DNA of 64,000 bases, taken from the NCBI RefSeq assembly GCF_900696045.1, contig NZ_LR216287.1, positions 310,001-374,000 of the forward strand. The letters are read 5' to 3'. Both the position numbers and the translations under genes were made by a program. Numbering within the stretch: position 1 is the first letter of the stretch; each line of letters opens with the position of its first letter. Source of the stretch: Candidatus Nitrosocosmicus franklandus (lineage in GTDB: Archaea; Thermoproteota; Nitrososphaeria; Nitrososphaerales; Nitrososphaeraceae). Below the pieces are notes generated by a model. It was not told the DNA's origin. It did not search any database and worked only from the letters and a program-made list of their open reading frames with translations. Below, piece by piece: positions 8,009-29,206 of this stretch.

Positions 8009-8920
8009 TTGTTTCGTAATATTTCATGGGTATCAGCAATTTCGATATTTAGAAGAGGCGACAGCGATATAATAAGGATTTATGATATCTTTTCAAATTT
8101 GATGAAAGTTACTACCGGAGCAAAGTTCTTGAATCTTGGTTTTTGGAACAAAGAACATGACACACCGTATCAGGCTCAGAAGAGGTTGACAGAATTACTT
8201 GGGGAATTTGGGTTATTTTCTTTTGCACATACAATTTTAGACGTAGGAAGTGGATACTCTCTCCCTGCTTATACGTGGCTATCGAAGTATCCGAATATTC
8301 AGGTTTATTGTATAAATTCAAGTTTTCACCAGCTTAAAGAAGCTAATTATGCCTGCCGCGAGGTAAAGAATAAATCTTATTACGGAATTGAACTCGTCTC
8401 AATCTCAAACCTGAACCAAAGGATTCATCATTTGAACGCCATTTCTAATTTATTGCCGTTAAGGAGTAATCATTTTGACAGAATTGTAGCTTTTGAATCA
8501 GCTCATCATTTTAGACCTCTCGAAATTTTTGTTAGCGATTGCAGTCGACTTCTCAAGCAGAATGGATTGTTGATACTAGCAATACCAGTAATTACAAGTG
8601 AAAGATCAAGAATCTGTCGATTTCTGGATCTTGGTATTCTCAATCTTACTTGGGCTTCTGAACATTATACAATTAGAAAAGTAAGATTTGCAATTGAGAA
8701 CAACGGCTTCAAGATTATTGAAACCAAGTTTATAGGTCCAAAGGTCTATCAATCTTTGGCCAATTACTATTTCAACAATTTAGCAGAATTGAGAACGAAA
8801 ATTGTGCAAGAATACCCTTCAGTTGTTGAATGGATTCTGAGAAAGTCGATCTTACGTATGAAGAAGGCTTCAGCGAGCGGCAAGATTGAGTATTTGTTGA
8901 TAAAATCTACAAAAAAATAG
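8009..8920 (+). CDS. SAM-dependent methyltransferase, class I
   Basis: 303 residues. Motif I is ILDVGSGYS (about residues 76-84); the DRIVAFESAHHF and LLKQNGLLILAIPV segments are motifs IV and VI of the Methyltransf_11 type. The preceding YDIFSNLMKVTTGAKFLNLGFW resembles the N-terminus of small-molecule or lipid methyltransferases that act on cyclic or prenyl substrates. The TTG start at 8009 keeps that segment whole; the ATG at 8102 would cut it. The substrate cannot be told. Confidence 0.82.
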   Translation: MFRNISWVSAISIFRRGDSDIIRIYDIFSNLMKVTTGAKFLNLGFWNKEHDTPYQAQKRLTELLGEFGLFSFAHTILDVGSGYSLPAYTWLSKYPNIQVYCINSSFHQLKEANYACREVKNKSYYGIELVSISNLNQRIHHLNAISNLLPLRSNHFDRIVAFESAHHFRPLEIFVSDCSRLLKQNGLLILAIPVITSERSRICRFLDLGILNLTWASEHYTIRKVRFAIENNGFKIIETKFIGPKVYQSLANYYFNNLAELRTKIVQEYPSVVEWILRKSILRMKKASASGKIEYLLIKSTKK

Positions 8921-21006: not shown

Positions 21007-21673
21007 GGCTCTGTTCAGTTAACAGGTTTTAATTCCTTGTTGTGATAGTCGACAAACAGGTTCAACCAGTTTTTTACGTGTTTTAGTTTGCAGTTCTTTA
21101 GCCTGCAGGGAAAGTAATCATCGAAACTTTCAGTTCTGTCCTTGATATACTGCATTGTTCTTTCAATCAAGTTTTTTTCATAGGAGGAATGGAGATGGTG
21201 TTCTAATTTAAGGAATTGACAAGCCATGGGATACCAAGTACCACCATCTGTTGAAACTGGATGCTTTCCATAGTCTCTGACTATGTTTGACAGAAACCGT
21301 TCCGCAACAAACATGTTTCTCTCCTTAGAAATGGATAGTGAGAGAATTTCCTTACTTTTCGCATCTATTGCAACCCATAACCACGTGTATTCTGAACCAA
21401 CCTTAAGCAATGTTTCATCTACAATGAATTCACATATCCTTCTTTGTTTTGTCTTGATAATCTTAGGTTGGTACTTTTGAATCCAGTTCCAGATAGTGAC
21501 ATGATTTCGTTTGATACAGTATGATAATCTTTCAGATGTTTTCCTAAGAGAAAGACCTGAAAAGTACAAATGTAAGCCATAATACACATATTTTGAAGGT
21601 GTTCTGTTTCTAGTATTCATAAAAGAGATAGGACATCTTCAAGCTATAGACTTGACGCTAAATGAACAGAGCC
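21007..21673 (-). mobile_element. Complete IS6-like insertion sequence, 667 bp
   Basis: Terminal inverted repeats begin GGCTCTGTTCA at both ends (left continues GTTAAC, right TTTAGC). An exact 8-bp direct repeat ATCTCGAA flanks it, the usual length for IS6. It carries one intact transposase. Matching flanks and an open reading frame indicate a recent insertion. Confidence 0.92.
21015..21620 (-). CDS. IS6-family-like DDE transposase
   Basis: 201 residues. A short N-terminal helix-turn-helix region (SLRKTSERLSYCIKRNHVTIWNWIQKY) precedes the DDE core: Asp in EFIVDETLLKVG, Asp in VSTDGGTWYP, and Glu in EKNLIERTMQYIKDR. TWLWVAIDAKSKEILSL is the usual strand between. The stop lies within the left end of the element. 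Length is on the short side for the family but all catalytic blocks are there. Confidence 0.9.
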   Translation of the reverse strand: MNTRNRTPSKYVYYGLHLYFSGLSLRKTSERLSYCIKRNHVTIWNWIQKYQPKIIKTKQRRICEFIVDETLLKVGSEYTWLWVAIDAKSKEILSLSISKERNMFVAERFLSNIVRDYGKHPVSTDGGTWYPMACQFLKLEHHLHSSYEKNLIERTMQYIKDRTESFDDYFPCRLKNCKLKHVKNWLNLFVDYHNKELKPVN

Positions 21674-24497: not shown

Positions 24498-25265
24498 GTC
24501 AATATTCGTTGACTATAAAAATTCGTGCGGAGTTTACTCTAATTTTCCGACATAGTAAACCGAAATCACTATTTTTATATCTTATCCACGACTATTCAGC
24601 CATTTTCTATCTCACAATATACGTTAAACTCATATCCCTTTGTCAGATTCAACAAATGACAATTCTTGTAAGGGACAGAGACTATTCGCGGAGTGTGTTT
24701 ATTTGCTATTGGTCTGATCTTTTTTTGAAATGGAAAGGGTTTTGCTCCTTTTGGGGCAGAAAAAAGCTGTATTATTATTGGAATTATTTTCTTCTGAACT
24801 CATCATCAAATTGCAAAAATGACTTATTAGCTAATGATATACAATAACTAGAAACTTGTAATCTTGAACCATTAATTAGATAATTGAATACCCTAGCTTT
24901 TTAGCCTTAATGACTAGTTATGAGAAATTTTCAAACAGCAACTGGCTTGAAACATGATGAAAGCCATATACCTTGAAGTGCCATAGACATTTACGAAAAC
25001 TCTAGCTTCAAGTTCAAAAGGAGCGGTATTGTATAATACTACTGAACAGATGATGAAAGCCAAACTACATTTCATACAATTTTGAGGATGGCAAAGAGAA
25101 GTGATTAAGAAGAATAAGCATCTTCTCATTGCCTTGGAATCGAATGATTGACCTACTGTCCTAGTATCCTTCCAAAGTTATTGCGGATGCTGATTTACTG
25201 AGGTGGTATATAGGTAGATAAAATTTATTCTATATTTTTCTACCATTCTCTCTATATAAAGTTAA
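24498..25265. other. Spacer without supported genes
   Basis: Only short ORFs of unlikely composition (24509-24847, 24914-25129). The right end leads into the promoter of the candidate RNA. Confidence 0.45.
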
Positions 25266-25273
25266 TATATAAA
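25266..25273 (+). promoter_or_regulatory. TATA box of the candidate RNA
   Basis: TATATAAA, placing transcription start near 25296-25299, about 12 nt before the closing stem begins. Confidence 0.5.
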
Positions 25274-25310: not shown

Positions 25311-25500
25311 GGGAGATAATCTGAGGTATCGAAATAGGCGTCAAGCGTCGTCTCACAACCCCTAGCGCTTTTGCATCTCATCATCAGATTGGAGCTTACA
25401 AATTGTATTAACGGATCCAACCTAGAAAGCAAATGGTAGCAATCCTGGTCTGGCCCATAGATGCTTATAGCGTAAACAGCCTACTTTAGATTATCTCCAC
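25311..25500 (+). ncRNA. Candidate structured non-coding RNA closed by a 17-bp terminal stem
   Basis: GGAGATAATCTGAGGTA (25312-25328) pairs along its whole length with TACTTTAGATTATCTCC (25482-25498), with two G-U pairs and no mismatch. About 150 nt of sequence richer in G and C than its surroundings lies between, with inner pairing such as TTGGA/TCCAA (about 25389-25422). A TATA box is correctly placed upstream and no ORF spans it. I looked for RNase P and SRP RNA hallmarks and did not find them, so the family is unknown. Confidence 0.62.
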
Positions 25501-26105
25501 ATCTAGGGTTCTACAGTAATGGTGTTTCTTCTTTGGCAGGAGTATATTAGTATCTTTGAATACTATTTATCAATTATTTAGCATGCAAATTTAGGGTGGA
25601 ATTATCCTTCCAGCGGCTATATTTTCCGCATTCTATCATAAAATCTAGATATTGTGAAAATAAGTTTAGAATAGTGATTTATGAGACAAAAGAACTTTGG
25701 TTTTAGTATGGAAAGCAACAAACTAAATCCTATGCCTGAACCACAAGATGCTGGAATGTGACAGTCGGGTATCCATGCTTGTTACATCAAGAATGAAGAG
25801 AACAAGCTATAGATTCTGATGCTGAAAATAATAAACTAAGAACTATATGCTTACTGGCTGTTCGTTTAGATAATGATATCGTTCTATAAATGAACCCAAA
25901 TAGAAGGACAACTACTCATCATTTTCCAATTAAACACATTATGATTATAGGTCCAACTTTATGATATACTTGATTTGAAGGAAAGATATCTATTTTTTAA
26001 TTTTTCTTCAGATTCTCTAATGAAGTATGTATACCCCGATTAGATATGAAATGTCGTTATATACAGAGAGAATTAGATTCTAATATTTAAGACAAGAGTT
26101 ACTAT
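25501..26105. other. Spacer
   Basis: No credible gene; the right end has an AT-rich box (TATTTAA, about 26083-26089) upstream of the broken cupredoxin. Confidence 0.45.
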
Positions 26106-26465
26106 ATGACACAAATGAGGCAATTCATTATTTTTGTTTTTCTCTCCATTGCATTAATGGGTGTTTGTACTGCGTTATCAAATACCACTCATGCTTAAGC
26201 AGTTGAAAAGGAAATCGCGATCGGACCCGATTCCTCTAAAAATGTAGTTTATAATCCTACAGAAATGACGATTAATAGAGGTGACAAATTGATTTGGGTG
26301 AACAAGGATTTTGGAATTCACACTGTGACTGAGAATCAAGGATTGTTTGGTTCAAAAGCTTTGCGTCCTGATCAGACATTCGAATTTACATTTGAGAATG
26401 CAGGAACATATGATTATCATTGTAAGCTTCATCCTGAAATGGTTGGAAAAATAATCGTAAATTGA
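26106..26465 (+). pseudogene. Secreted cupredoxin interrupted by one stop after the signal peptide
   Basis: ATG at 26106 starts a 30-residue signal peptide ending in NTTHA; TAA (26196-26198) is the next codon, then the frame is open to 26465. The mature part is a type 1 copper protein of the amicyanin/plastocyanin kind: FGIHTVTE gives the first His, and YHCKLHPEMVG gives Cys, His and Met ligands. No other lesion exists in 120 codons. The stop could come from CAA by one transition. The 66-residue downstream ORF at 26265 alone would be cytoplasmic and truncated. Confidence 0.82.
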
Positions 26466-27962: not shown

Positions 27963-29206
27963 CTACAGTCCGCTATTTTTTTTAATCGTCCGTCAGAATA
28001 AGAATACCAGGTGAATATGCACTTCCCTGCAGTTATATTTGGTAGTTAATTCCTGTTGAATTTTTTTTCCTCATTTTTTTGTAAAATTGTAAGAATATTT
28101 TCATAATCCAACCGTCACCATCATAATCAATAATTAAGTTTATCCGATGATTGCTTTAAAACCGTCTCACCGTATATAAATTCTAACCTTATTAATGTTT
28201 GATAATAAATTTTGAATATAATATTCTGCGTCCATCCCAAATTACTGTTTATAGTTATTCCTTTAAGTTACGTAAGGTAAGAAAAAATAGGCTTTAACAG
28301 TAACTCTTCTAGGTATTAATCAAATATGTGTTCAGCATTTTAGTCTAATCCACGATTAAGCCCTGTCCCTATTGTCAAATATAAAGGAAATAGGACATCC
28401 AGCATCAATCTATAGAAATATCGTTAAATTGATAGGTTGACAGGGTTACCTTTCAAAGATAGTATCAGTTTCGAAAATGAGAATATAGATCAGAAATACA
28501 TACAATCTCTTCCAAACAACTATGCCTTGGAACTCCAAAGGACAAAATCACACATAGCTCATTTCGACTTGCAAGAAAAGAAAGACTAAGGATTGAGGCT
28601 ACATTCATATGATTAGTATCAAAAAGCTTGGTCATCATATCACATACGCTGATAACTTTGATGATGGCAGAACAAAAAGTAAGATATCATTGAGCACACA
28701 TCATCTTACCATTTCTAACAAAGGATACAAAAGCATGAGAAAGTTCCCCATGTGAACTTCTAATTGATGCCTTTATCGTTACTCTTTCTACGAACCTGTA
28801 ACAATTATATTTCTAATCGAAAAAGCCAATTAGTTCTCTTATGACATAATATTCTACCAGTGACCTAATCGAAATTATTTTGAAAGAAAGGGTATCGACA
28901 ATTTATAAAAGTCATTGATTAGAAATTGGCTAAACTGATATAAATCAGACCTGACAGTGGATTTGATTGCCGAATTCTGTTTCACTTACTGAGATTTCGT
29001 TAATGACCCATACCATATTTCATATAAAAAATTAATTCTAGAATCCTAACGGATTAAACTATGTTAGAAGCAGAATCATCACCTTGGTTGTGTGAATATA
29101 TTATAGTGTGAACAATGGCAATGGGCTTATTAAATGAAAGCTTTAAAAATATTACCATATTGTAATTTGGATTGACCTTGACAGATTATTTCAAGAATCC
29201 GACTAA
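27963..29206. other. Long spacer
   Basis: 1.24 kb with no ORF worth calling. A short region with nested inverted repeats is listed separately at 28361-28445. Confidence 0.45.
28361..28445. repeat. Nested inverted repeats, weak RNA candidate
   Basis: CCCTGTC (28361-28367) can pair with GACAGGG (28439-28445); inside it ATCAAT pairs with ATTGAT, and TGTCC..TATT competes with AATAGGACA. No promoter match was found. Could be chance in AT-rich DNA. Confidence 0.25.

Follow-up and report, generated by a model that had tools for sequence, protein, structure and literature searches.

The segment at 25311-25500 of the window (the whole 64-kb stretch of DNA analysed here) is, as judged from sequence comparison, a real structured non-coding RNA gene and one copy of a diverse multicopy family. 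The perfect 17-bp closing stem with two G-U pairs, which the original prediction of a stable non-coding RNA had put forward, is indeed present (25312-25328 pairs with 25482-25498) and is contained in the minimum-energy fold of the segment (-59.8 kcal/mol, z -4.4, with 0 of 200 shuffles as low). It is the only stem of at least 17 bp with a loop of 30-320 nt within the window; because an equally long stem occurs in one of 12 dinucleotide shuffles of the whole window, however, its length is only mildly unusual and makes weak evidence by itself. The fold, unlike the stem length alone, is clearly more stable than its shuffles. The segment is also free of open reading frames, as had been proposed, to the extent that ORFs of at least 60 aa do not overlap it and the longest in the stretch amounts to 43 aa. 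What stands of the predicted stable RNA is a structured non-coding RNA that matches no Rfam family, supported by covariation in relatives, whereas its boundaries and its exact stem do not hold and its strand probably does not. The perfect stem is not quite what the family conserves: its inner five pairs (25324-25328/25482-25486) compete with the family-conserved helix P2; the outer 12 bp of P1 (25312-25323/25487-25498) are compatible with the family fold. The proposed boundaries are too short, the conserved unit reaching to about 25640. A second family copy lies in the window in the opposite orientation (Table 1).

Table 1. Features of the RNA locus and of the second family copy, in window coordinates.
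Feature	Coordinates	Strand	Basis and remarks
Predicted non-coding RNA gene, copy 1	25311..25540	-	Core by covariance model; strand and start deduced from family evidence
Putative transcript of copy 1	Start ~25540, end at or beyond 25311	-	
Predicted TATA box GATAAATA	25564..25571	-	Motif conserved across subclasses; TAAATA counts and alignment
Near-palindromic element TTTGCATGCTAAA adjoining the TATA box	25577..25589	Minus-strand reading	Alignments, motif search; putative operator
P1 closing stem arms	25312..25328 and 25482..25498	-	Fold, stem search
P2 arms	25332..25339 with 25479..25486	-	Covariation
Highly conserved P2-P3 junction	25340..25361	-	Small third hairpin in several subclasses
P3 arms	25362..25368 with 25470..25475	-	Covariation
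P4 arms	25373..25377 with 25460..25464	-	Covariation
Apical arm, length and sequence varying between copies	25378..25459	-	Whole core 75-315 nt across members
TATA-like AAAGTTAATATATA	25259..25272	+	Conserved in the subclass only; possible promoter should the transcript be on plus
Second RNA core copy	28591..28779	Model match on -, hence + by family strand assignment	R2 bits 65.9, E 1e-12 (window)
Promoter element with TATA region predicted for the second copy	28478..28502	+	Pattern match with two mismatches, G000 338478-338502

The family is new in sequence and structure, with no corresponding family in Rfam 15. For the segment itself no Rfam family was found at the gathering threshold, nor even at E 10 save for a chance match upstream, and the scan of the window gave a tRNA as its only match, in agreement with the predicted absence of RNase P and SRP RNA hallmarks. 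A search of literature with few subscription journals in it turned up no relevant paper on the non-coding RNAs of Nitrosocosmicus, Nitrososphaera or Thaumarchaeota, and an earlier description elsewhere is possible. Archaeal C/D box and H/ACA guide RNAs resemble the present family in being multicopy and standalone and in carrying a variable part on a constant part, but the long closing stem and the junction seen here are not a guide-RNA architecture; a guide RNA was rejected because the Rfam scores stay below threshold (sub-threshold snoRNA scores of 15-19 at the second copy versus cut-offs of 35-50), and inspection by eye only revealed no clear C/D or ACA boxes. Likeness to tRNA, the hammerhead, the k-turn or attC was likewise weighed by eye only and set aside. 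RNase P RNA and archaeal SRP RNA are, like the present RNA, stable RNAs closed by pairing of their ends, but they differ from a family whose divergent copies number nine or more per genome and that has no Rfam match; in the window's own genome the presence of at least nine paralogues rules out a single-copy housekeeping RNA. OLE, GOLLD, ROOL and HEARO are large structured RNAs of bacteria to which no function has been assigned. The present family shares with them a conserved, intricate structure of unassigned function, yet it is smaller, archaeal and multicopy, and it matches no Rfam family.

Besides the segment, the own genome (2.84 Mb, one contig) contains two further copies, 99% and 85% identical in the RNA, plus a shorter match. 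Homology among the three close copies spans about 0.7 kb, and a conserved block is shared with a fourth, diverged copy in the same genome and with three copies in another species of the genus. When these first seven sequences were submitted to RNAalifold, helices P2, P3 and P4 emerged unaided, with five pairs changed on both sides. A first covariance model, built from the copies in the own and one related genome, brought in additional members, and two rebuilt models widened the family. In the resulting alignment of 77 sequences, which is fitted to the model and includes one doubtful member, two-sided changes occur at 17 of the 20 core pairs, the two-sided cells of P2-P4 number 173 against a shuffled mean of 57, and 84% of P2-P4 cells hold standard pairs as opposed to 28-47% for slid partners. 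The MAFFT-based test on seven sequences is the cleaner of the two, because later alignments were fitted to the model, and both tests agree. Relatives do show compensatory changes of the base pairs in a shared secondary structure, the evidence on which the original prediction had staked itself. Comparison of the sequences showed that the common core consists of three stacked helices, P2-P4, with strongly conserved internal loops and a copy-specific closing stem P1, and that the apical arm differs from copy to copy. One match (L057) was judged false and left out; another, which lies outside the family (G321) and overlaps an ORF, is probably due to chance.

Copies were counted with covariance model R3 at E 0.01. 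Nine Nitrosocosmicus genomes, including the own, carry 9, 12, 17, 12, 8, 6, 5, 2 and 1 copies, the first four figures belonging to G000 (the own genome), G003, G006 and G013, respectively; most well-assembled relatives in the genus have 5-17. One genome of another Nitrososphaeraceae genus (G023) has 19 copies, and a few other genera of this family have one or two. All these counts are lower bounds, because two members with cores longer than 310 nt surfaced only via the promoter motif. Three of 15 Nitrosocosmicus genomes (G001, G007 and G010) gave no match, and the RNA is therefore not universally required; the same three genomes provide a contrast within the genus that is useful for studying function. 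Among 200 genomes drawn from the order, matches were confined to the Nitrososphaeraceae, and nearly all of the named records that contain the conserved 3' motif belong to Candidatus Nitrosocosmicus, a genus of this family. Carriage by viruses was rejected, viral contigs containing no exact match to the conserved 3' motif. Soil ammonia-oxidizing archaea, as far as their genome sequences tell, carry this previously undescribed RNA in numbers that reach about 19 in a single genome, each copy with the same core and a different arm.

Dispersed copies have in common a stretch that begins about 20 nt ahead of the core and ends 115-145 nt past it. In many members the TAAATA of the conserved flank adjoins the near-palindrome TGANAATCTAGATCA, the counterpart in other subclasses of the element at 25577..25589, as established by alignments and motif search. 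Placed next to a TATA box, this near-palindrome is a putative operator. A search with the promoter element alone retrieved two further strong members with very long arms and cores above 310 nt, at L175:487-799 and L174:637-951, which had been missed by the genome searches. L117 at about 8100-8300, beside a promoter-motif match (G000 1722837), resembles a strongly diverged or decayed member.

The original prediction had assumed a plus-strand promoter and transcript. Our sequence comparisons suggest that the transcript is probably on the opposite, minus strand. Read on the plus strand, imperfect pairs comprise 50 A-C versus 26 G-U at 85% clusters (p 0.008; at 80% clustering, p 0.11), and as A-C in the plus reading is G-U in the minus reading, the excess of the latter is about two to one. 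For 54 of 77 members the minus strand has the lower composition-corrected folding z. The sole conserved flank is the plus-strand 3' side of the core, and 43 of 72 members have TAAATA on the minus-upstream side, whereas the opposite flank has it in 8 of 72 and control stretches have it in 5-14 of 72. The members in these counts are related and hence not independent. Raw fold energies are uninformative for the strand because they depend on composition, and we therefore used z-scores and wobble counts; the per-class consensus energies given by RNAalifold are mixed, differing little or in the other direction for classes C, D and Long. No T-run terminator turned up, and there is no enrichment on either strand. 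Transcription of the minus strand from about 25540 under the TATA box at 25571-25564 is supported, not proved, by these patterns. Could the same RNA family be transcribed from the plus strand instead, with the AAAGTTAATATATA box at 25259-25272 as its promoter? On this strand the window copy has the better fold (z -4.4 versus -2.3 on minus), the two odd pairs of its closing stem are G-U here, AAAGTTAA is conserved in seven of the seven first-aligned members from two species, the window's subclass keeps a plus-strand AAAGTTAATA, and class C has the more favourable folding energy on plus. The predicted TATA-like box exists upstream of the segment, but its conservation is limited to the subclass of the window copy, outside of which the plus strand upstream of the core is not conserved, and across the family minus is favoured by the wobble asymmetry, the z-scores, the conservation of one flank only and the position of the TATA box. 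Although the window copy alone leaves the strand unsettled, we consider plus-strand transcription rather unlikely.

The genes around the copies bear on what kind of element this is. Because the nearest downstream ORF lies at random on the same strand (34 cases) or the opposite strand (39 cases), and because no recurrent family is found among the neighbours (no Pfam family in more than three of 111 neighbouring proteins, the largest neighbour cluster comprising six), the RNAs are standalone. An RNA associated with a protein such as TnpB, a reverse transcriptase or a Cas partner was rejected for want of a recurrent adjacent protein gene. A riboswitch or leader controlling neighbouring genes in cis might also exist in many copies per genome with a conserved core and variable arms; given the random strand of the downstream ORFs, their distances of 80 to more than 2000 nt and the lack of a gene family in common, this reading can hardly be maintained. 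Several copies are arranged in tandem, and certain sets keep their synteny from one species to another. In one of these, set B, identity has fallen to about 50% in the flanks but stands at 61-90% over the core and a one-sided stretch of about 150 nt next to it; set A lacks such a contrast, its flanks having remained well conserved. These observations also bear on a non-autonomous mobile element, that is, a MITE- or IS-derived palindrome which an IS transposase would spread and whose structure would be kept at the level of DNA. Such an origin would account for dispersed, recently duplicated 0.7-kb copies and for IS6-like transposases within less than about 7 kb of several of them, but with 97 IS6-like matches in the own genome, proximity is uninformative, and no flanking element other than IS recurs. 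Moreover, some copies are syntenic across species while their conservation is limited to the core and promoter, and an excess of G-U on one strand is a signal of the RNA type. Synteny and the one-strand wobble excess thus render the mobile palindrome the less likely explanation, and we regard it as improbable.

We estimate at roughly one in two the probability of our preferred reading, namely that the gene of the Nitrososphaeraceae structured-RNA family at 25311-25640, which has a common core and a copy-specific arm, would be transcribed from the minus strand and act in trans together with its siblings. The conserved core would be bound by one common protein, or would otherwise provide stability and recognition; the arms, which differ between copies, would interact with different RNA targets or partners; and the common promoter element would let one regulator control many copies. 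Binding of a protein to the core and arm-specific targets are suggested by the fact that a folded core is under strong selection, that divergent copies are many and that a promoter-like element is shared. As a best guess, the family may act in trans in the manner of bacterial sibling small RNAs, of which CsrB-type duplicates (PMC6262261) and the sibling sRNAs of Neisseria (PMC5362039) are examples. Both systems are reported to comprise several paralogous standalone intergenic RNA genes that arose by duplication, and such paralogous genes are found here within one genome; set beside them, the present family has a shared promoter element, is archaeal and reaches 19 copies, the likeness drawn here being one of gene arrangement.

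More tentatively, the family could constitute an expanded, lineage-specific class of trans-acting RNAs in ammonia-oxidizing archaea, in which the core binds a dedicated protein and 9-19 or more individually armed copies are co-expressed via the shared operator; if true, this would represent an archaeal RNA-based regulatory network with no known counterpart. The main functional rival is a protein-titrating or scaffold (sponge-like) RNA, for which copy number would matter and the arms would hold no target information. Invariant core loops, fast-evolving arms and large expansions (19 copies in G023) are all consistent with a sponge, but the arms remain folded and are alike within syntenic sets, which suggests that they have some function; we deem the sponge somewhat unlikely. 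Apart from guide RNAs and riboswitches, structured RNAs that form large multicopy families are, to our knowledge, rare in archaea. Because cultured Nitrosocosmicus strains exist, expression, the partner protein and the targets of the preferred trans-acting siblings are directly testable, and the range from zero to about 19 copies among close relatives amounts to a natural experiment.

Two protein-coding features of the surrounding DNA deserve mention. An IS6/IS240-like transposase is located at 21015-21620, with about 97 matches in the own genome and 115 in G003, many of them broken. At 26115-26465 we noted a cupredoxin-like frame with an in-frame TAA right after its apparent signal peptide, which is probably a pseudogene.
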